Shown here piece after piece: positions 1,243 through 63,438 of a DNA stretch of 64,000 bases (its first letter is position 1; the number at the start of each line of letters is the position of its first letter). The position numbers were made by a program, and so were the translations under genes. The notes under the pieces were generated by a model. That model saw nothing but the letters and a program-made list of their open reading frames with translations. It was not told the DNA's origin and made no database searches. Source of the DNA: Persicirhabdus sediminis (GTDB taxonomy: Bacteria; Verrucomicrobiota; Verrucomicrobiia; Verrucomicrobiales; Akkermansiaceae); assembly GCF_016595495.1 (NCBI RefSeq), contig NZ_JAENIM010000044.1, positions 124,001-188,000 on the forward strand, in the 5' to 3' direction.

Positions 1243-2784
1243 ATGAAAAAAGAGATAGTTTCAATAATAAATGGAGTAGGGATGATCGCCTTGAGCACTG
1301 GCGTCTCCTCGGCGCAAGAAACAAGCTATCAAGCTACTAACGAGTCATTGGTGAACTATCAAGTGCCTGAGTGGTACCAGGATGCAAAGTTTGGTATTTG
1401 GGCTCATTGGGGTGTTTATTCAGTACCAGCCTTTGGCGGCACTCATGCGGCGGAGTGGTACCCGCGCCACATGTACGATCAAACCAATGCTAACGGGCAT
1501 TACGAACACCATCAAAAGACCTACGGTGACAATACCGAGTTCGGATATAAGGATTTCATCCCAATGTTTAAAGCTGAGAAATTCGACGCTAACCAATGGA
1601 TGGATCTAGCTGAGAACGCCGGCGCTAAATTCTACACCGTGGTCTCCATGCACCACGATGGATTTGCCATGTACGACAGTGAGCATACCAAGTGGAATGC
1701 CGCCAAGATGGGTCCTAAGCGAGATCTCACTAAAGAGTTGATTGACGCTGCTAGAGCGCGTGGGCTGAGAACTGGTATCTCTAACCACTTCGCATTTAAC
1801 AATGCCTACTACGATCACATGTTCAAATTTGGCGGTGACTGGGCGGAAGAATATGAAGACCTCTACGGTCGCGGCAGCGAGAAGATGGATGAATGGGGCT
1901 TGAATCGCTGGTGGAATGTAACAACTGAGCTGGTAGATAAATATAGCCCAGACCTGTATTACTTCGACTGGGGCTGGAACAATATAGCGATAAGAGACCA
2001 CTTTGTTGGCCAGCCACAAAGGTTTGCCGCTTATTACTACAACCATGCGGTAAAGAACGGCCAAGGGAGCTACGGTGCTCCAGGTGTGGTGATGAATTTC
2101 AAAGGTAAAGTCTTACCAGTAGACGCTGCCGTTCAAGACTACGAGCGTGGTGGTAAAACTGAAGTTAGCCCAAATGTCTGGCAGTGTGATACTTCTATCA
2201 GCAAGCATTCATGGAGCTACTCAGTGCACGACGATTACTGGCCATCAGACGAGTTGGTAGACTCGCTCATCGATGTAGTTAGTAAAAATGGTGTGATGAT
2301 GCTCAACTTCGGCCCTAAGGCAGATGGTACTATTCCAGCTGAATACTCAGATAGACTGCTAGATATTGGTAGCTGGCTCAAACAAAATGGCGAATCCATC
2401 TATGCGACTCGACCATTTGATGTTTTCGGTGAAGGCCCAACTGTGCGTACCGCAGAAAACCGTCAGGAAATCCACCGCAATGGATATAACTACGGCAGCA
2501 AAGACATTCGCTTTACCCGCAGCAAAGATAACAAAGACCTTTTTGCTATTGCTCTCGGCTGGCCAGAAGACGGCAAGCTAACAGTAACAACACTTGGCAA
2601 AGGAAAGTTTGATCTTAGCGGGCTGAAAACTATCAATCTTGTAGGTTCAGATAGCCAGCTGTCATGGAGCCAAGATGAACAAGGCCTGCACATCACTTGC
2701 CCTGAAAAAGGTGAAGGCAAATTTGCTTACCCATTCAAGCTCAGCTTCGGAGCAGAAATTCCTAAGCTTCAAGCAGCGAAGTAA
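1243..2784 (+). CDS. Alpha-L-fucosidase, GH29, secreted
   Basis: A 513-residue protein with a signal peptide (1-25, ending SSAQE), then a GH29 barrel. Family landmarks are WYQDAKFGIWAHWGVYSVPAF near 43-63, MHHDGFAMYDS with K-W in the next stretch, and LYYFDWGWNN with Asp242 at the position of the catalytic nucleophile (usual context W/Y-F-D-G). The motif KNGVMMLNFGPKADGTIP near 350-365 is the typical GH29 end of the barrel, followed by a C-terminal beta domain. GH29 enzymes remove terminal alpha-L-fucose with retention. The acid/base Glu cannot be placed by eye. The divergent AraC gene suggests inducible expression, and the neighbouring sulfatases suggest fucose-containing sulfated glycans as possible substrates. 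Confidence 0.92.
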   Translation: MKKEIVSIINGVGMIALSTGVSSAQETSYQATNESLVNYQVPEWYQDAKFGIWAHWGVYSVPAFGGTHAAEWYPRHMYDQTNANGHYEHHQKTYGDNTEFGYKDFIPMFKAEKFDANQWMDLAENAGAKFYTVVSMHHDGFAMYDSEHTKWNAAKMGPKRDLTKELIDAARARGLRTGISNHFAFNNAYYDHMFKFGGDWAEEYEDLYGRGSEKMDEWGLNRWWNVTTELVDKYSPDLYYFDWGWNNIAIRDHFVGQPQRFAAYYYNHAVKNGQGSYGAPGVVMNFKGKVLPVDAAVQDYERGGKTEVSPNVWQCDTSISKHSWSYSVHDDYWPSDELVDSLIDVVSKNGVMMLNFGPKADGTIPAEYSDRLLDIGSWLKQNGESIYATRPFDVFGEGPTVRTAENRQEIHRNGYNYGSKDIRFTRSKDNKDLFAIALGWPEDGKLTVTTLGKGKFDLSGLKTINLVGSDSQLSWSQDEQGLHITCPEKGEGKFAYPFKLSFGAEIPKLQAAK

Positions 2785-2846: not shown

Positions 2847-4766
2847 TTAGATCTCGCCAGCTAGCTCCTCCATGACTTGGCGGAAGGGCAGGTGTTGGCA
2901 GGATTCCCATAGTGGGTTGCTGCGGATTCTGGCGGCGCTGCTAGCTGGGGATGATAGCCCGCAGAGAAAGCGAGCTGCCTGACGTGGGCTGGCGAGTGCT
3001 TGTGGATGTTGGGCGCGCAGTTCAGCTAGCTGGCTAAGTGTGTTAGCTGGTATTTCAGCTTGGCTTTCTAGCTCAGCTAGAGGCTCAGGAAAATGCCCGC
3101 GGCAGGGTGAGCAATGACCACAGGGTGGCCGCTCTTCGCCGAAGTAATCGAGGATTTTTTGAGTCAGACATTGATGGCTGGCGGCGTATTCCAACATCAT
3201 GTCGATGCGCTCGATTTCCTGGTTTTCGTGATCGAGGAATTGTTGGGCAATTTGCGCTTTCAGCTGGTCGCGATCAATTTCGTTAGGAAGCTTTTTGTAT
3301 AGCTGCCGGTACCCTTGTAGCTTGAGTTCGATGTGCCCTTGTTGGTGGCACCAGTCCATGGCGGCGAGTATGCGCTCGCGGTCACAGCTGAGTTTTTGCA
3401 TGGCTAGGCCAGTATCTAGCGTGAGCCAGGTTTTTGCTTTGCTAGCGCAGCTGAAGATGATTTTGAGAAATGCCTGACGGCGTTCGTCAACGCTACCAAG
3501 AATCTCGCTAGAGCTGCGTAGTGCCTTGAAGCTAATTTGCCCGTAGTAGGCACCCATGGCGCGGATGACGCCAGCGAGCTCTAGGCGGGTGAGCAGGGTA
3601 TTGACGACGAGGTTGCGGATGTCGTAGCGTCTTGCTAGATCGTGAATGGCGAGGTCAATTTCGTCGCCACCATCTAGCAGATAATCGATGAGGTCGTTAA
3701 CTGCTTGGGGATCTGGCGTATCGCCGTAGACGAAGTTTTCTAGCACAATGCGGTCGCTAGCGCAGACGAGCAGCTCACAGATGGCTGGCTCACCATCGCG
3801 GCCAGCGCGGCCAATTTCTTGCATGTAGGATTCAAACCCTTTGGCCATGTTGTAGTGATAGACGTAGCGGATGTTGGATTTATCTACCCCCATGCCAAAG
3901 GCGATGGTGGCGACAACAATACCGGTGTCGCTAGCCATGAATTGGTCTTGCACGCTGGCGCGCTGCTCAGCAGCCATGCCGGCGTGGTAGTGCTCAGCTG
4001 GGAGTCCGTGTTCACGCAGCATGGCGGCGACGCGTTCGGCGGTTTTTTGCAAAGTGACATAGACCACACATGGACCTTTTGGTCGCTGTTGGATGTTGTC
4101 TACCAGCTTCTTGTCACGGTCTGCATCATTACTGCAGGTGGTATTTTTTAAGCCTAAGTTAGGGCGGTAAAACCCTGTGTTGATGACGTGCTCTGGCTGG
4201 ATCTTGAACTCACGGGCCATGTCGTCGATGACTGGTGGCGTGGCGGTGGCGGTGAGCGCGAGTGTGCGCTCAACATTCAGCTGGCTAGCTGCCATGGCGA
4301 GTTTCAGGTAGTCGGGGCGAAAGTTGTGTCCCCACGAGGAAATACAGTGGGCTTCGTCAACCGCTAACAATGAAATGGTGATACCTTTGATTTGCGCAAG
4401 GAAGCGCTCGTTGCCGAGTCGCTCGGGAGCTACGTAGAGCAATTTCAGCTGGTTGGAGCGGATGTCTTGCAGCACTTGTTTGTATTCATCTTCGTCTAAT
4501 GATGAATCTAGCCGAGCGGCGGCGATACCACGTTTCTGCAGCGCGTCGATCTGATCTTTCATCAAAGCAATGAGCGGGGAAACGACAAGCGTTAGACCGT
4601 CAAAGCAGAGCGCTGGTAGCTGGTAGCACAGGCTTTTTCCCGAGCCAGTAGGAAAGATGGCGGCTGCGCTGTGACCATCTATCAATGCTTGCACCACAGC
4701 TTGTTGGCCGGGGCGAAATGATTCGTGGCCAAAGTGGGTTTTTAAAAGATCAGCTGGCTGAGACAT
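2847..4766 (-). CDS. recQ: ATP-dependent DNA helicase, RecQ family
   Basis: A 639-residue superfamily 2 helicase. Visible motifs: FRPGQ (17-21, RecQ motif 0), Walker A GSGKS (41-45), DEAH at 137-140 followed by CISSWGHNFRPDY, the aromatic-rich RecQ loop, then helicase-C motifs ATIAFGMGVDKSNIRYVYHY and QEIGRAGRDGEP. The C-terminal part has a winged-helix-like stretch and ends in a small Cys cluster, CGHCSPC near 550, that may be the zinc-binding site. No HRDC domain is obvious. The role is 3'-5' unwinding of recombination and replication intermediates. It starts 32 bp after the DUF3820 gene, so it is probably the last gene of a nudC-DUF3820-recQ operon. Confidence 0.9.
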   Translation of the reverse strand: MSQPADLLKTHFGHESFRPGQQAVVQALIDGHSAAAIFPTGSGKSLCYQLPALCFDGLTLVVSPLIALMKDQIDALQKRGIAAARLDSSLDEDEYKQVLQDIRSNQLKLLYVAPERLGNERFLAQIKGITISLLAVDEAHCISSWGHNFRPDYLKLAMAASQLNVERTLALTATATPPVIDDMAREFKIQPEHVINTGFYRPNLGLKNTTCSNDADRDKKLVDNIQQRPKGPCVVYVTLQKTAERVAAMLREHGLPAEHYHAGMAAEQRASVQDQFMASDTGIVVATIAFGMGVDKSNIRYVYHYNMAKGFESYMQEIGRAGRDGEPAICELLVCASDRIVLENFVYGDTPDPQAVNDLIDYLLDGGDEIDLAIHDLARRYDIRNLVVNTLLTRLELAGVIRAMGAYYGQISFKALRSSSEILGSVDERRQAFLKIIFSCASKAKTWLTLDTGLAMQKLSCDRERILAAMDWCHQQGHIELKLQGYRQLYKKLPNEIDRDQLKAQIAQQFLDHENQEIERIDMMLEYAASHQCLTQKILDYFGEERPPCGHCSPCRGHFPEPLAELESQAEIPANTLSQLAELRAQHPQALASPRQAARFLCGLSSPASSAARIRSNPLWESCQHLPFRQVMEELAGEI

Positions 4767-37823: not shown

Positions 37824-38678
37824 ATGAATCAGCTGGAAAGTGCCAATGATCAAGAACAAGCTCACCGCGATGCGTTGATCGCAGCGAGGGAGCGTGTCAG
37901 CACGCCGGAAGAACAAGCCAATGCAATTGGCTTGAGCTTTGAGGAGCAAATCCGGCAATGGAAAAAGAGCAAGCAGGAGGCTGCTCAGGCAGCTCAAGCG
38001 AGTGAGCAAGCGGCAGTAGTAGCGGAAGCCAAAGCTGTCATCCAACCTGCTGCAGAAGCACCAGCGAAGGTAGAAAATCCGCCAGTAGCTGAAGTGGTGA
38101 AACCAGTTGTCGAGGAAGTGAAGCCAGTAGCTGAAGTGGCGCAACCGGTTGTCGAGCAAGTGAAACCAGTAGCTGAAGTGGCGAAACCGGTTGTCGAGGA
38201 AGTGAAACCAGTAGCTGAAGTGGCGAAACCGGTTGTCGAGGAAGTGAAACCAGTAGCTGAAGTGGCGAAACCGGTTGTCGAGGAAGAAAAGCCAGCTGCT
38301 GAGGAAGAAAAACCAGCCGAAGCTGCAGGTGGCCAAAGTTTGCTAGAACAGTTTTTAAGTGCATCTAAAGCACGCGCCGAACAAGGAGAGTCAGCTGACC
38401 TGTCTAGCTTGACAGGAACTCAGGCGATCAATGTAGAAAGCTCACCGTCACGCCCACTTGCCTCGCAGACGACGGCGCAAGTTCGCCCGCTCACAGGGGC
38501 TCAGCAGGCAGCCATGGCACGTGCGCACGCAGCACAAGTACGCTCTGCTAGAATTGATGTGAAACCACATCACGGCGCTAATTTACCTGCATCCGCCCGC
38601 CCACAAAGAGAGGCTAGACCTTCCGTTTCAGTGAGCGAGCATTTGAAAAAGTTCTCCCCACCACCACAAGCAGAATAG
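37824..38678 (+). CDS. Charged repeat protein, Val/Pro/Glu/Lys-rich
   Basis: 284 residues with no signal peptide or TM. After an acidic N-terminal helical region (1-90) comes a 14-residue repeat of the type KPVAEVAKPVVEEV, in about five near-perfect copies (38094-38300 in DNA, 42-bp unit). The repeat alternates charged and Val/Pro residues, predicting an extended, flexible chain. The C-terminal part is Ala, Arg and Ser-rich (VRPLTGAQQAAMARAHAAQVRSARIDVKPHHG). No family is recognised. Low-complexity linkers of this sort occur in TonB-like and surface proteins, but without a membrane anchor its location is unclear. A terminator follows. Confidence 0.7.
   Translation: MNQLESANDQEQAHRDALIAARERVSTPEEQANAIGLSFEEQIRQWKKSKQEAAQAAQASEQAAVVAEAKAVIQPAAEAPAKVENPPVAEVVKPVVEEVKPVAEVAQPVVEQVKPVAEVAKPVVEEVKPVAEVAKPVVEEVKPVAEVAKPVVEEEKPAAEEEKPAEAAGGQSLLEQFLSASKARAEQGESADLSSLTGTQAINVESSPSRPLASQTTAQVRPLTGAQQAAMARAHAAQVRSARIDVKPHHGANLPASARPQREARPSVSVSEHLKKFSPPPQAE
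38094..38300 (+). repeat. 42-bp tandem repeat inside coding sequence
   Basis: About five copies of a 42-bp unit encoding KPVAEVAKPVVEEV. Copies 2-4 are almost identical in DNA, so expansion is recent or gene conversion is active; the copy number may vary between strains. Confidence 0.8.
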
Positions 38679-51262: not shown

Positions 51263-52376
51263 GAATTCCAGCTAGCGGAAACCATAGGCCAGCTGGAGCC
51301 ACCTCCTCAACCTAGCTAGTGGGGGGAAATTTCCAGCTAGCTGAAAGCAATCAGAGCGTCTATTCTAGGCGCTCTTTTTTATTGCTCGTGAGCTGGCTAG
51401 CTGTGGGATTTGTGAGTCTCTAGCTGAGCGCATATCCTAGCGCATTGAGGTTATGATTTGGGTTAGACCCGCTTGTCTTTCCTCCTGCCGAAGGCATGGT
51501 TAAATGCCAGCCCCGTGCGATGGCGCAGCCATCCCACGGGGAGAGAAATATCACGGAATCGCGTGCTGAAAGTACGCCGTGCTTGATTAGAATTCCAGCT
51601 AGCTGAAACAATAAGCCAGCTGGATGCTCCTCATCAACCTAGCTAGTGGGAAAATTCCCAGCTAGCTGAAAGCAATCAGAGCGTCTATTCTAGGCGCTCT
51701 TTTTTATTGCTCGTGAGCTGGCGAGCTGTGGGTTTGTGATTCTCTGGCTGATGCATATCCTAGCGCATTGAGGTCATCATTTGGGCTAGACCCGCTTGTC
51801 CTTCCTCCTGCCGAAGGCATGGTTAAATGCCAGCCCCGTGCGATGGCGCAGCCATCCCACGGGGAGAGAAATACCACGGAATTGCGTGCTGAAAGTACGC
51901 CGTGCTTGATTAGAATTCCAGCTAGCGGAAACAATAAGCCAGCTGGAGCCACCTCCTCAATCTAGCTAGAGGGAAAATTTCCAGTTAGCTGAAAGCAATC
52001 AGAGCGTCTATTCTAGGCGCTCTTTTTTATTGCTCGTGAGCTGGCGAGCTGTGGGTTTGTGATTCTCTGGCTGATGCATATCCTAGCGCATTGAGGTCAT
52101 CATTTGGGCTAGGACCGCTTGTCCTTCCTCCTGCCGAAGGTATGGTTAAATGCCAGCCCCGTGCGATGGCGCAGCCATCCCACGGGGAGAAAAATACTAC
52201 GGAATCGCGTGCTGAAAGTACGCCATGCTTGATTAGAATTCCAGCTAGCGGAAACAATAAGCCAGCTGGATCCACCTCCTCAATCTAGCTAGAGGGAAAA
52301 TTTCCAGCTAGCTGAAAGCAATCAGAGCGTCTATTCTAGGCGCTCTTTTTTATTGCTCGTGAGCTGGCGAGCTGTG
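51263..52376. repeat. Tandem repeat, about 3.4 copies of a 323-327 bp unit
   Basis: A GAATTCCAGCTAG start recurs at 51263, 51590, 51913 and 52236; another marker (GAAAGCAATCAGAGCG) recurs at 51343, 51668, 51991 and 52314. Each unit carries a terminator-like hairpin (AGAGCG/CGCTCT followed by T6), several CAGCTAG and CCAGCTGG words, and a 31-bp near-palindrome with CCCCGTG and CACGGGG arms (51511-51541, 51834-51864, 52157-52187). Small frames recur on both strands in each copy, but the differences between copies mostly change amino acids, so coding is doubtful. Confidence 0.92.
51353..51380 (+). terminator. Terminator hairpin, first of four copies
   Basis: AGAGCG/CGCTCT stem around TCTATTCTAGG, then TTTTTT, downstream of the flavoprotein gene. 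Copies recur near 51678, 52001 and 52324 in the tandem repeat. Confidence 0.75.
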
Positions 52377-52482
52377 GGTCTTCTGGACATTATGGCTCTG
52401 GCTAATTTCTTTCTAGCTAGCCAAAGTGGAGCAGTCGTTAGTTTGCCGTTGCATCCTAATCTAATCTAGTGAAGCTGGCGGC

Positions 52483-56043: not shown

Positions 56044-56388
56044 ATGGAAAAAACAATTTGCCCACTGTGTGAGATGGACGATGTACTCGACCATGCGGAT
56101 AAATACGAATGCATGGTTTGCGGCCACGAGTGGGAAAAAGAAGAAGCCGAGGAAGATGATGCGCCAGAAGAACGCATCGTCAAAGACGCCTACGGCAATG
56201 TGCTCGAGTCCGGTGACATCGTGCAGATGATCAAAGACATCAAGCTCAAGGGATCGTCTAACGTGCTCAAGAGCGGCACCAAGTCACGCCCAATCCGCAT
56301 TGTCGACGGCGACCATGAAATCGACTGCAAAATGAATGGCATCGCCATCGCGCTGAAAGCGTGTTTTGTCAAAAAAGTTCAAAGTTAG
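56044..56388 (+). CDS. yjdM: YjdM/PhnA-type zinc-ribbon protein
   Basis: 114 residues from the ATG at 56044; an upstream TTG/CTG frame to 55948 is not needed. Zinc-binding Cys6, Cys9 (CPLC), Cys23 and Cys26 (CMVC). VKDAYGNVLESGDIVQMIKDIKLKGSSNVLKSGTK and DGDHEIDCKMNGIAIALKACFVKK match YjdM (formerly PhnA). The function is unknown; it is not needed for phosphonate use. The hairpin array starts directly after its stop. Confidence 0.93.
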   Translation: MEKTICPLCEMDDVLDHADKYECMVCGHEWEKEEAEEDDAPEERIVKDAYGNVLESGDIVQMIKDIKLKGSSNVLKSGTKSRPIRIVDGDHEIDCKMNGIAIALKACFVKKVQS

Positions 56389-56404
56389 GAAGCTGCGGGT
56401 AGTG

Positions 56405-57935
56405 GGTTCGGCCTGCGGCCTAAGGTGCGCTCCGCTGCAGGTACGGCCTGCGGCCTAAGGTCCGGGCTTCGCCCTAAGGTGCGCTGCGCTGCAAGTACGG
56501 GCTTCGCCTTGGAAGTTCTATCAAGTGTGCGGCATCTAGAGTGCGCGTGCTTTAGCACCGCTTTCAGCTGGCGAGACGGCTCCAGCTTTCTAAGGTTCGG
56601 GCTGCGCCCTGCAGGTGCGCTCCGCTGCAGGTACGGCCTGCGGCCTGCAAGTTCTCCCGCATTCGCGGGATGCAGGTGCGGACTTCGCCTTGGAAGTTCT
56701 ATCAAGCGTGCGGCATCTAGAGTGCGCGTGCTTTAGCACCGCTTTCAGCTGGCGAGACGGCTCCAGCTTTCTAAGGTACGGGCTGCGCCCTGAAGGTGCG
56801 CTGCGCTGCAGGTGCGGCCTGCGTCCTGCAGGTTCTCCCGCATTCGCGGGATGCAGGTGCGGACTTCGCCTTGGAAGTTCTATCAAGCGTGCGGCATCTA
56901 GAGTGCGAGTGCTTTAGCACCGCTTTCAGCTGGTGAGACGGCTCCAGCTAGCACTCTACGTTCTAAGGTGCGGGCAGAAGGTACGGGCTTCGCCCTAAGG
57001 TGCGCTGCGCTGCAGGTACGGCCTTCGGCCTAAGGTCCGGGCTGTGCCCTGAAGGTGCGCTCCGCTGCAAGTACGGCCTGCGTCCTGCAGGTTCTCCCGC
57101 ATTCGCGGGATGCAGGTACGGGCTTCGCCTTGGAAGCTCTATCAAGTGTGCGGCATCTAGAGTGCGCGTGCTTTAGCACCGCTTTTAGCTGGCGAGACGG
57201 CTCCAGCTTTCTAAGGTACGGGCTGTGCCCTAAAGTCCGCTGCGCTGCAAGTACGGGCTTCGCCCTAAGGTGCGCTGCGCTGCAGGTACGGCCTGCGGCC
57301 TAAGGTACGGGCTGTGCCCTGAAGGTGCGCTGCGCTGCAGGTGCGGACTTCGTCCTGCAAGTTCTCCCGCATTCGCGGGATGCAGGTACGGGCTTCGCCT
57401 TGGATGCTCTATCAAGTGTGCGGCATCTAGAGTGCGCGTGCTTTAGCACCGCTTTCAGCTGGCGAGACGGCTCCAGCTAGCTCTCTACGTTCTAAGGTGT
57501 TGCGGGCAGAAGGTACGGGCTGTGCCCTGCAGGTGCGCTGCGCTGCAAGTACGGCCTGCGGCCTAAGGTACGGGCTTCGCCCTAAGGTGCGCTGCGCTGC
57601 AAGTACGGCCTGCGGCCTAAGGTTCGGGCTGTGCCCTAAAGTCCGCTGCGCTGCAAGTACGGCCTGCGGCCTAAGGTGCGGGCCTCGCCCTGAAGGTGCG
57701 CTGCGCTGCAAGTACGGCCTGCGGCCTAAGGTACGGGCTTCGCCCTGAAGGTGCGCTACGCTGCAAGTACGGCCTGCGGCCTAAGGTACGGGCTTCGCCC
57801 TGAAGGTGCGCTGCGCTGCAAGTACGGCCTGCGGCCTAAGGTACGGGCTTCGCCCTGAAGGTGCGCTCCGCTGCAAGTACGGCCTGCGTCCTGCAGGTTC
57901 TCCCGCATTCGCGGGATGCAGGTACGGTCTAGCGG
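56405..57935. repeat. Dense array of mini-hairpins with triplet loops
   Basis: The array is a run of small palindromes: GGCC-TGC-GGCC, GGGC-TTC-GCCC (or TGT loop), GCG-CTG-CGC (or CTC loop), separated by short spacers such as TAAGGTAC and TGCAAGTAC. Larger blocks repeat within it: a TCTATCAAG...AGCT block (56517, 56698, 56879, 57138, 57408), which itself folds as GTGC-TTTA-GCAC and AGCTGG...CCAGCT, and TCCCGC-ATTC-GCGGGA blocks (56652, 56840, 57092, 57361, 57898 approx.). Long frames on both strands lack family signal and are artefacts of repetition. Confidence 0.92.
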
Positions 57936-57949
57936 TCTAAGGGTACACA

Positions 57950-58130
57950 GCGCTCTATGGTTTTGGCGTCTATCGCCTGATACTAACGCCGCAGGCGTAT
58001 CACAGCCTAGCCTTGGGTAAGGCAGCCCAGAATGGGCAACGCAACCCAAGGGAAAGCGCAGCGCAAAAGGCACTCTGAAAGAGTGCGTCAGCCGAGCGGT
58101 GAGGGAGTTAGTGAAGATTAGATACCTTCT
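57950..58130. repeat. Block of larger nested palindromes next to the hairpin array
   Basis: Stem-loops include CCTTGGGT...ACCCAAGG (about 58008-58050) enclosing GCCCA-GAAT-GGGC, CGCC-GCA-GGCG, GGCG-TCTAT-CGCC and GCACTC-TGAA-GAGTGC. It is non-coding by appearance and sits between the array and the convergent ribH gene. Confidence 0.7.
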
Positions 58131-58161
58131 CGCTGCCGCCTAGACATTCGACCTATTTAGC

Positions 58162-58599
58162 TCAAATGCTCCTCAGCGTATTGATAAAACTGAGCGCTGA
58201 GCTGGCGACTTCTTTGCCTTTCACCTTGAGGTGTTGGGCAAAGAAATCGATGTGATCTTGATGTTGGTGGAAATGGTGTGGGGTAAGCACTGCAGAGAAT
58301 ACCGGCACGCCAGTATCTAGCTGGATGCGCATGAATCCATCAATCACAGCCTGAGTGACAAACTCGTGTCGATAGACACCAGCATCTATCATCAGGCCAA
58401 AGGCGATGACGCCATCGTAGCGGCCAGTTTCAGCCAGCTTTTTGGCCATCAGAGGAAGTTCGAGACAGCCGGGAACTTTGAAATAGTCGACTTGTTGATC
58501 GGTATTGATTCCCTGAGCAGAGAGTTCGGTGAGGCAGCAATCTCTGGCTGCATCTAGCAGCTCAGCCTGCCATGAGGCGCTGATGATGGCGAGTTTCAT
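58162..58599 (-). CDS. ribH: 6,7-dimethyl-8-ribityllumazine synthase, type II (RibH2-like)
   Basis: 145 residues. ASWQAELLDAARDCCL at the start, VPGCLELPLMAKKLAETGRYDGVIAFG, DAGVYRHEFVTQAVIDGFMRIQLDTGVPVFSAVLTPHHFHQHQDHIDFF match lumazine synthases. The Y-R-H-E/D-F-V and LTPHHFH stretches resemble the type II (RibH2) enzymes known from Brucella and Mesorhizobium rather than the common RibH1. It catalyses condensation of the ribitylaminouracil with a butanone phosphate in riboflavin synthesis. No other rib genes lie nearby. Start ATG 58599 has 9 bp to the BatD-like gene's end. Confidence 0.88.
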   Translation of the reverse strand: MKLAIISASWQAELLDAARDCCLTELSAQGINTDQQVDYFKVPGCLELPLMAKKLAETGRYDGVIAFGLMIDAGVYRHEFVTQAVIDGFMRIQLDTGVPVFSAVLTPHHFHQHQDHIDFFAQHLKVKGKEVASSALSFINTLRSI

Positions 58600-61116: not shown

Positions 61117-63438
61117 TTACCAGTCTTGTTTTGGCTGGCGCTGCCATCGGTTGCGTCGTCTGATAGGTTTGGTTTCTAAATCAGAGTTGGCCTCGAGTAT
61201 TTGCCGAGCATGCTCGCGGGCGGCTTCCATTTCTTGCTCAGAGAGCTGGCGCGCCTCCATGCCTTGCTGACCGTCTTGTTGTTGGCCTTCTTGCCCTTCT
61301 CCCTGCTGCTCTTGGCCTTGTTGGTTTTGTTGTTGCCCCTCTTGTCCTTCTTGTTGCTGGCCGTCTTGTTGTTGTCCCTCTTGGTCTTCTTGCTGATCGC
61401 CCTCTTGGCCTTCTTGTTGATCTTGATTCTGTTGATCTTGATTCTGCTGATCTTGATTCTGCTGATCTTGGTTCTGCTGATCTTGATTCTGTTGATCCTG
61501 ATTCTGCTGATCTTGGTTCTGCTGATCCTGATTCTGTTGATCTTGATTCTGCTGATCTTGGTTCTGCTGATCTTGATTCTGCTGATCTTGGTTCTGCTGA
61601 TCTTGGTTCTGTTGATCTTGGTTCTGTTGATCTTGGTTCTGTTGATCTTGATCCTGCTGATCTTGAGGGTTTTCCATCTCCTCTTGAACCTTGGTATTTT
61701 TAAGCAACTGCAGCCATTTTTCTACCTCTTTGGCATTGGTGGCAGCGGCGCTGTGGCTGGCATTTAGCTGGCTGGATTGTTGGTATTGCTGCAGCGCGCT
61801 CTCCCATAGGCCGATGAGCTCTTTGGTGCCTTCGCCCTTGTTGTCCTTAGCATCTTTGGTGACAAATTCAGTGAATGCTTCAGCTGGTTTGCTGAGGTCT
61901 TTGACGCCAATCCTCTGCCACCCCTGAAGGAAGAGTGTATTGCCGAGGTTGTAATAAGATTCGGATTGCAGCTGATTATTCTGGCTGAGCAGTGATCTGG
62001 AAAATGAATCTGCGGCGGATCGTAAGTCGCCTAACTTGTAGTGAGCTGTACCCTCGGCAAAATCAATCTGCGCACGGCGCTCGGCGTTGCCTAAGTCGTT
62101 AGCTTCAGCTAGCAGGCTGAGCGCTAGCTGGTAGTCTTGTTTTTCTAATGCGGCTTTGGCGGCGACGACTTTTCCCGCAGCATGGGCCGGCTGGCTAGTG
62201 GCTGCTAGGGTGATGCCTGCTATAGCCAAGGCGCTGAGAATTGGCTTTTTGTTAGCTTTTCTGGCTGGCTGGGCTGGTGCGTCTGGCTGGCCGCGACGCG
62301 CGAAGCTCATAGTGGCGAGCACGGAGAGGAAAAGCAGGATGACGGCGGGCAGCAATGCCCATTGGTAGCGCTCTAGCGGGATGGTGCGCACACGGTCTTT
62401 TTCTTCTTCGGCATCAATGGCGGAGATTGCCTGAGTGATTTGTTTTACCGTATCTGCAGTGGCTCCCATGAATGGTCCACCAGAGGCGGCGGCGAGTTCA
62501 TTGAGTGGGCTAACTTCCATTTTACTGAGTACTGTCTGGCCACGGAAATCGCGGAATTTACCATCGCGCTGGCGCGGATCAGGAATGATGCCACCGCGCT
62601 CGGTGCCTACAGCCACGCTGCAGATGAGGTGTGAGCTCTCGCGGATTTGTTTGATGGTGGAGTCGATGTTTTCTGAGTAATCTTCCCCGTCGCCAATGAT
62701 GACAAGCGCATTGCGCGAGTGGCCGGATTTTTTAAAACTATCCATCGCCATTTCTACCATGCGGTCCATGTTGCTGCCGCCCATCGGGATGTAGTCGGTA
62801 TCTAGCTGGCTGATGGTTTCGCGCACCGCATTGTGGTCGATAGTGAGCGGCGCAATGATCATGGACTCGCCAGCGTAGACCATCACGCCAACACGATCTT
62901 GTGGGCTGGCGGCTAGAAGTTCTAGGGCGATGGCTTTGGCGGCTTCCAAACGATTTGGCGAAACATCTTCCACGAGCATGGACCGCGATGTGTCGATGCT
63001 GATCATGATGTTGCGCGAGCGCGTGGTAGATGTGACTTCCTCGTGACCGTGGAATGGGCGTGCCATCGTTAGGCAGAGCAGGGCAAATCCACATAGCGCA
63101 AGGGTGAATGCTAACCATTTCATGAAGGGGGGCCGGCGTTTGACCAAACGGTCACGTAGACGCGGGGCGACGAGTGAGAGCCAGGCTTTGCTTTGTTTGC
63201 GCGCAGCGATGACCGCGACCACGATGATCAGTGGTATGGCTGCTAGCGCGATAAACCAATTGGGCTCGGCGAATTGTATATAGGTGCTATCGATGGGCGG
63301 AAAATAGAACCCATTTGGCAAAATGCCAAAGGAGAAATTTGTTTTGCTAGATATTTTCTTCACCACGGCTAGCTGGAGGCGCTGAGCGGTGCGGCTAATG
63401 AGTTGACCAGAGCTGGTGTGAGGGCTAGTTTCGCCCAC
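61117..63438 (-). CDS. VWA-TPR protein (BatB/BatC-like) with Gln-Asp-Asn-rich repeat
   Basis: 773 residues from a GTG start that is uncertain; the VWA membrane protein may begin further in, near FAEPNWFIALAAI (56-68). TM helices: about 58-78 and 109-126. The VWA domain has an intact MIDAS motif D149-T-S151-R-S153. TM near 360-378; TPR region follows (LEKQDYQLALSLLAEAND, QIDFAEGTAHYKLGDLRSAADSF, YYNLGNTLFLQG). Then comes a 15-bp coding repeat giving NQDQQ units (about 61419-61662) and a Gln/Glu/Gly-rich tail. It combines BatB and BatC types. It is opposite the acyltransferase gene. Confidence 0.85.
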   Translation of the reverse strand: MGETSPHTSSGQLISRTAQRLQLAVVKKISSKTNFSFGILPNGFYFPPIDSTYIQFAEPNWFIALAAIPLIIVVAVIAARKQSKAWLSLVAPRLRDRLVKRRPPFMKWLAFTLALCGFALLCLTMARPFHGHEEVTSTTRSRNIMISIDTSRSMLVEDVSPNRLEAAKAIALELLAASPQDRVGVMVYAGESMIIAPLTIDHNAVRETISQLDTDYIPMGGSNMDRMVEMAMDSFKKSGHSRNALVIIGDGEDYSENIDSTIKQIRESSHLICSVAVGTERGGIIPDPRQRDGKFRDFRGQTVLSKMEVSPLNELAAASGGPFMGATADTVKQITQAISAIDAEEEKDRVRTIPLERYQWALLPAVILLFLSVLATMSFARRGQPDAPAQPARKANKKPILSALAIAGITLAATSQPAHAAGKVVAAKAALEKQDYQLALSLLAEANDLGNAERRAQIDFAEGTAHYKLGDLRSAADSFSRSLLSQNNQLQSESYYNLGNTLFLQGWQRIGVKDLSKPAEAFTEFVTKDAKDNKGEGTKELIGLWESALQQYQQSSQLNASHSAAATNAKEVEKWLQLLKNTKVQEEMENPQDQQDQDQQNQDQQNQDQQNQDQQNQDQQNQDQQNQDQQNQDQQNQDQQNQDQQNQDQQNQDQQNQDQQNQDQQNQDQQNQDQQEGQEGDQQEDQEGQQQDGQQQEGQEGQQQNQQGQEQQGEGQEGQQQDGQQGMEARQLSEQEMEAAREHARQILEANSDLETKPIRRRNRWQRQPKQDW
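61419..61662 (-). repeat. 15-bp coding minisatellite (NQDQQ units)
   Basis: GATC recurs exactly every 15 bp about 17 times, with the unit GATCTTGATTCTGCT on the forward strand and small variants. It encodes a polar, flexible linker in the VWA-TPR protein. Copy number probably varies. Confidence 0.9.

Follow-up and report, generated by a model that had tools for sequence, protein, structure and literature searches.

REP/RAYT systems (REPtrons) consist of short dispersed palindromes and of a RAYT gene flanked by inverted copies of them, and tandem clusters of REPs with variable composition are on record (PMC3733652). In BIMEs and REPINs the REPs are paired in inverted orientation (PMC3686654, PMC8266576), and in TIRtrons/TIRYTs the flanks of a Y1 transposase gene carry inverted repeats that are palindromic (PMC3733652).

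Here we describe a mosaic array of mini-palindromes from Persicirhabdus sediminis, found at positions 56405-57935 (plus strand) of the window, that is, of the whole stretch of 64,000 nucleotides that was analysed. As in REPtrons, its palindromes are short and dispersed in the genome, and one of them occurs as inverted copies on both sides of a RAYT gene; however, this REP block is mostly AGAG-tagged, and the triplet-loop modules that surround it, which form the main component of the array, differ from REPs in being tagged with GTNC, in their 2-4 bp stems and exchangeable payloads, and in that no RAYT of their own is among the genes examined. Several palindrome types are combined in tandem as in BIMEs and REPINs, but whereas these contain inverted REP pairs, all modules of the array (53/53) face the same way. 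The likeness to TIRtrons/TIRYTs lies in six IS200-like Y1 genes of this genome that are palindrome-flanked, one of the flank elements having a relative beside the array, although none of the genes of this type that were examined belongs to the triplet-module family. Double-hairpin elements, which form small palindrome clusters in organelle genomes, may resemble the array visually. Taken as a whole, the array is probably an accumulation of palindromic DNA repeats that are non-autonomous and of the REP kind, and neither a gene nor a folded RNA.

Organisation of the array

The array starts 17 bp after the end of yjdM (56044-56388, plus strand; zinc ribbon/PhnA domain; NCBIfam TIGR00686, 112.4 bits; Pfam PF03831, 87.1 bits) and sits inside the 1773-bp gap (56388 to 58162) between this gene and the convergent ribH (58162-58599, minus strand; NCBIfam NF009084, 191 bits for a cut-off of 160), which encodes a lumazine synthase that we take to be reminiscent of the type II enzymes. 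None of the three ribH genes closest to it (51-57% identity) has a yjdM within about 1.5 kb, the distance in the window itself being larger. Among 57 other genomes, just 3 contain such close relatives of ribH, the matches elsewhere being weak, and a second, weakly similar match (24% identity) is present in the same genome at G000:C21:167718.

Cutting at the linkers parses the array almost completely into modules, each made of a near-constant linker and an exchangeable mini-palindrome, so that the constant linkers noticed in the initial annotation are real. A regular expression delimits 53 such modules arranged head to tail, all of them, as well as all five REP blocks, on the plus strand. The linker reads T(A/GA/GC)A(A/G)GTN, after which the payload starts with C, and CT ends most modules; module lengths are mostly 15, 16, 19, 20, 25 and 81-92 bp. 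The payloads are GGGC-TTC-GCCC, GGCC-TGC-GGCC, GC-TNC-GC and variants, TCCCGC-ATTC-GCGGGA (first copy at 56655-56670, plus strand; further copies at 56836-56851, 57095-57110, 57365-57380 and 57901-57916) and five long GTGC-TTTA-GCAC blocks (TCTAGAGTGCGCGTGCTTTAGCACCGCTTT; 56535-56564, 56716-56745, 56897-56926, 57156-57185 and 57426-57455, all on the plus strand). Higher-order units are superimposed on this pattern: a 55-bp unit is repeated 7.0 times at 57510-57892 (plus strand; Tandem Repeats Finder, 93% matches) and carries the payloads GGGC-TTC-GCCC, GC-TNC-GC and GGCC-TGC-GGCC, and longer units of 181 and 270 bp take in the REP blocks. The module anatomy is thus one of tandem growth by whole modules. 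Beside the array, a multi-hairpin element (57986-58095, plus strand, ends set by eye) can be aligned to sequence flanking an IS200-like transposase gene (L065).

Two other classes of repeat were considered and rejected. A protein-coding repeat was discarded as the longest open stretch of the array reaches 117 codons for a median of 172 in mononucleotide shuffles, which agrees with the initial view that the long frames are a by-product, and the 55-bp period, not being a multiple of 3, also counts against coding. The locus is likewise no CRISPR array, as had been recognised from the start: unique spacers are lacking, and the sequence between linkers is itself repeated.

Hairpin content

The hairpin words first read from the sequence, and their positions, were confirmed: GGGCTTCGCCC occurs 7 times (shuffle mean 0.05), GTGCTTTAGCAC 5 times and TCCCGCATTCGCGGGA 5 times as exact copies, all of them inside the array and far above shuffled expectation, although for TCCCGCATTCGCGGGA one in 100 shuffles also reached 5 when 3 mismatches were allowed. 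The word that had been read as GCG-CTG-CGC is present but ambiguous, its variants CACTTCGT (5 instances) and CGTTACAC (1 instance) fitting GC-TNC-GC better.

Compared with 200 dinucleotide shuffles, perfect hairpins with a 3-nt loop are in excess in the array, both for stems of at least 3 bp (69 vs 33.0, maximum 49) and for stems of at least 4 bp (31 vs 9.5, maximum 19), and with stems of at least 5 bp there are none (2.8 in shuffles). Hairpins with a 4-nt loop and a stem of at least 4 bp show no excess as a class (10 vs 9.1), the ten in the array being two words found five times each. Together, perfect hairpins with a stem of at least 4 bp and a loop of 3 or 4 nt account for 31% of the bases (13.7% in shuffles, maximum 21%). 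The statement that nearly every stretch is palindromic was therefore right about the excess of triplet loops and too strong about coverage.

The TTTA block is a REP

The core of the GTGC-TTTA-GCAC block occurs at 41 places in the 4.17-Mb genome (34 exact and 7 with one mismatch), the backwards control giving 0. Alignment of 39 of the 41 copies delimits about 30 conserved bases with sharp ends and mostly unrelated flanks; the stem is imperfect and bulged. Nine of the 41 copies surround a single RAYT gene (L025), five in plus orientation on one side and four inverted (minus) on the other, and these nine fall inside two different tandem repeats. The gene (positions 4589-5137 of L025, minus strand) scores 78.1 bits with the NCBIfam model REP_Tyr_transpos (NF047646), just below its cut-off of 80, and 23.8 bits with Pfam Y1_Tnp (cut-off 23). 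Its product is similar to the TnpArep structure (PDB 4er8; E 4.8e-4), and its translation holds HYH and, in LAYINQNPVKHG, a tyrosine, within the region aligned to 4er8, the correspondence being one of region and not of individual residues. Since inverted REP copies flank a RAYT gene, the criterion commonly applied assigns the TTTA block a transposase partner; it is a REP whose cognate RAYT, of the Y1/HUH single-strand transposase kind, lies elsewhere in the genome, where the initial annotation had suggested looking for one. The accompanying remark that the locus follows no known REP layout consequently holds for the triplet-loop part only, and not for this block.

A second RAYT-like gene (L108:2972-3523; G000:C46:47977-48504), 59% identical to the first, scores 75.2 bits with the NCBIfam model, again under the cut-off, and possesses REPs of its own, built on the same plan, GGAG-tagged and repeated on both sides. 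This second gene is missed by Pfam Y1_Tnp. Inverted repeats with GAGTGCGG were found at this gene and at 5 of the 7 RAYT loci examined in other genomes, the remaining 2 showing no inverted repeats by a 14-base exact test, and the REP end CGCT is also present in L108, L101, L102 and L104. The GTAG/GGAG tetranucleotide expected beside the stem was not found in the TTTA block, where the 5' tag is mostly AGAG and sometimes AGAC or TGAG; GGAG occurs in the L108 REP and in three relatives (L104, L105 and L107), and the AGAG is likely a derived tag. The experimentally studied REP of Marinomonas, REP_Mb, also has a TTTA loop (PMC8266576), from which we claim no kinship.

The triplet-loop modules

A module scan of 32 stretches (the window and L009-L039) retrieved 220 instances, among which 71 payloads are distinct. 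Because one mononucleotide shuffle of 52 stretches (403 kb) still gave 20 matches, against 222 in the real sequences, a good part of the payloads seen once are expected to be chance. Among the 12-nt payloads (94 instances, 27 distinct), the loop is T-N-C in 84 of 94, N being any base, and the stems change compensatorily: 92 of 108 stem cells are paired, for 79.4 with shuffled arms, and none of 2000 shuffles reached 92, with the proviso that the rows are related. The 8-nt payloads (71 instances, 10 distinct) have a T-N-C loop in 68 of 71, and their pairing is not significant by the same kind of test (273 of 2000 shuffles reach the observed value).

A T-N-C loop on the plus strand is a G-N-A loop on the minus strand, closed by C-G. 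DNA mini-hairpins with GNA or GNNA loops and at least two G-C pairs are extraordinarily stable, GCGAAGC melting at 78 °C (PMC4686876). Across the whole genome, GGSC-N3-GSCC was found at 273 sites (48 for the backwards control, tandem copies each counted), and a GNA loop is present on one strand in 108 of these 273 (40%) as opposed to 5 of the 48 control sites (10%). A DNA folding model gave both hairpin strands the same value, -2.4 kcal/mol; as the model does not separate the strands, the argument from GNA stability rests on the published measurements. No literature treating REPs together with GNA loops was found in our searches, and those for the word GGCTTCGCC, for RAYT/REPIN, for palindromes of Verrucomicrobia and for REPs with rRNA operons returned, among the papers listed, nothing nearer than PMC3733652.

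With up to 2 mismatches, the module pattern matches 43 times in this genome (control 0), and a BLAST search with the array retrieved 60 places in it, the array included; together with the 41 REP-core places, these counts bear out the proposal of a proliferating palindrome family. No BLAST match of the array was obtained in 37 other genomes and no exact match in viral contigs, and a second genome of the genus did not turn up in the genome searches. The pattern matches at most twice in each of 386 other genomes of the phylum, and those listed among the 18 with 1-2 matches all have 1-2 mismatches and do not exceed the backwards control. GGSCGNAGSCC mostly stays close to its control, or under it, in 57 relatives, the largest excess with at least 20 sites being that of G053 (92 vs 35) and the counts of G038 (8 vs 1) being small. 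The tag of these modules is (A/G)GTN followed by C, and not GTAG or GGAG. The triplet-loop modules thus form a separate, lineage-specific family that seems to be confined to this genome.

Array loci differ by whole modules

Besides the window, 20 other loci of this genome carry arrays, with different flanks and different module orders. Six of them (L012, L014, L017, L018, L020 and L022) are homologous arrays located behind rRNA operons: Rfam recognises a 5S rRNA in L017 and L022, and an identical terminator lies close to a contig end in the other four. The six have the terminator and the first modules in common; further on they diverge in units of whole modules, and matching positions vary in payload and in the middle base of the loop. 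The notion of a recombination hotspot is to this extent, and in part, supported.

A link between module orientation and replication strand was also considered and rejected: orientation agrees with GC skew at 13 of 18 loci, and at 7 of 12 once the six homologous arrays are left aside.

Y1 transposase genes and neighbouring palindromes

Pfam Y1_Tnp (PF01797) has 25 matches in this genome. No triplet-module array was found around them, around the second RAYT-like gene or at L109, where two isolated, chance-like matches were the only ones; the scan needs two linkers and misses a lone module, and some genes lie at contig ends with one flank absent. As judged by eye, palindromes stand on either side of six single IS200-like Y1 genes; at several of these genes they are in tandem, and several have C(GNA)G loops. 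Among hairpins with a 3-nt loop and a stem of at least 5 bp, the share with a GNA/TNC loop, each tandem copy being counted, is 56 of 99 at these six loci, 97 of 414 for the window together with the array loci L009-L039, 20 of 112 where the Y1 genes are long (about 400 aa) and 9 of 65 in the non-array part of the window.

The long Y1 proteins of about 400 aa belong to two multi-copy families (L068-L081, L098 and L099). In each family one member was scanned, and it aligns to the C-terminal half of the RAYT model with a score under the cut-off; one family is often preceded by AAAAGATGCACGGCATTTTT palindromes, similar ones being present beside the arrays of L010, L026 and L031.

The Rfam family RF01687 (Acido-Lenti-1) is marked as probably RNA in Table 1 of PMC2864571. 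It has at least 73 matches in this genome and, under strict filters, matches in at least 38 of the 58 genomes searched, this one included. Among the matches listed, 23 of 150 lie within 2 kb of the best 96 listed Y1 genes, for 0.54 expected randomly; these involve 15 Y1 genes in 11 genomes, tandem copies being counted each. In L063, the family corresponds to inverted palindromes that flank an IS200-like gene on either side (1272-1317, 1520-1565 and 2526-2571, minus strand; 3461-3506, plus strand), and it is also present in L009, L011 and L013. At least here, RF01687 is probably a transposase-end palindrome rather than a free-standing RNA.

Origin of the array

If the array is an accumulation of REP-kind repeats, copies probably landed between two convergent genes, where they would be harmless, and the array was then likely lengthened and reshuffled as whole modules were gained and lost at linkers that are nearly identical, be it by slippage, by unequal exchange or by Y1-mediated cutting and joining of single-stranded hairpins. 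The hairpins would act as single-stranded DNA, a Y1 transposase may move the triplet-loop modules in trans, and any effect on the transcription of yjdM or ribH would be secondary. Action of a Y1 enzyme in trans on these modules is plausible given their hairpin style, their mixing with REP and IS200-flank elements and the single-stranded substrates of Y1 enzymes. In Escherichia coli, TnpA_REP cuts at a CT located 5' or 3' of the REP (PMC8266576); the CT module ends fit cutting of this type and prove nothing. Points against a REP-type reading are that no owner gene of the modules was found among those examined, that they have no GTAG tag and no clear strand bias, that they follow each other head to tail, and that the parts of the array that were folded do no better than shuffles.

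A bolder and more doubtful version, which we put forward tentatively, would make the triplet modules a distinct class of bacterial repeat, in which a fixed GTN linker serves as exchange site, swappable hairpins are selected for C(GNA)G, and a Y1 enzyme recuts them in trans. The single strand would be exposed during replication or by cruciform extrusion, and then cut and rejoined module by module. Two observations go half-way towards this version, namely that N is any base with the flanking T and C mostly kept, and that C(GNA)G is common around the six IS200-like genes. Through the GNA signature, the d(GCGNAGC) mini-hairpin, a curiosity of biophysics, is connected to repeats that have multiplied in a natural genome; the signature also points to a recognition feature of single-strand transposases that can be put to the test.

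The strongest competitor, though an unlikely one, is a minisatellite in which slippage and unequal exchange are the only forces, the palindromes are incidental and the triplet part has no transposase. The head-to-tail order and the higher-order units of 55, 181 and 270 bp speak for it, as does the fact that no Y1 gene carrying triplet modules was found, and slippage and unequal exchange at the linkers could indeed account for array growth. Nevertheless, the family is found at many loci with different flanks, and slippage alone predicts neither this dispersal nor the compensatory stems of the 12-nt payloads and their conserved T-N-C loops.

We regard as improbable that the array is a structured or regulatory RNA, or a two-way terminator or 3'-end stabiliser of yjdM and ribH, maintained by selection. 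Roles of the terminator or stabiliser type have been hypothesised for REPs (PMC3733652), the array does lie between two convergent genes, and 9 of the 21 array loci are found just 3' of rRNA, tRNA or tmRNA genes (L015, L019 and L031 for tRNA or tmRNA), a raw count in which six are homologous copies. Convergent context is, however, not in excess: the 21 loci comprise 10 codirectional, 3 convergent, 2 divergent and 6 undetermined cases by a crude ORF caller (one "gene" in L022 overlaps the 5S rRNA). A 431-nt part of the array, taken as RNA from the plus strand, folds worse than its shuffles (z +2.47), no Rfam family matches in the window at gathering scores, no promoter-like site was found in the array region, and promoter and terminator scans remain at chance level. 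The structured RNA suggested in the initial annotation is not supported by these results. C(GNA)G is a DNA stability motif and, to our knowledge, not an RNA one. A global fold of the DNA was rejected as well, a 110-nt part (both strands) and the 431-nt part (minus strand) folding no better than shuffles.

That the array is an assembly artefact, by chimerism or wrong expansion of a repeat, is very improbable: the assembly comprises 47 contigs, five of these stop near an array at an rRNA operon, and a run of N interrupts another array (L010), but the array of the window is internal to a 236-kb contig, and arrays with differing module orders exist at many loci whose flanks differ. The copy number assembled for the window may nevertheless be inexact.

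Returning to the accumulation of REP-kind repeats, the window and the 20 other loci, six of them homologous, provide a natural series of modular palindrome arrays within one genome. The same genome encodes two RAYT-like and many other Y1 proteins, and hence offers material on the birth, tagging and recombination of REP-like repeats.

Other repeats in the window

Several further repeats are present in the window. Tandem repeats at 38082-38314 (42 bp) and 61317-61666 (15, 24 and 39 bp) have periods that are multiples of 3 and are possibly genic. At 51263-52379, a 323-bp unit repeated 3.4 times contains CTGCCGAAGGCA and CCCCGTGCGATGGCGCAGCCATCCCACGGGG palindromes, similar ones being found in L024. 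The word CAGCTAGCTG occurs 8 times in the window, for 0.17 in shuffles, and CCAGCTAG is 20-fold over-represented (50 sites vs 2.5 shuffled) and is frequent in other fetched stretches too.
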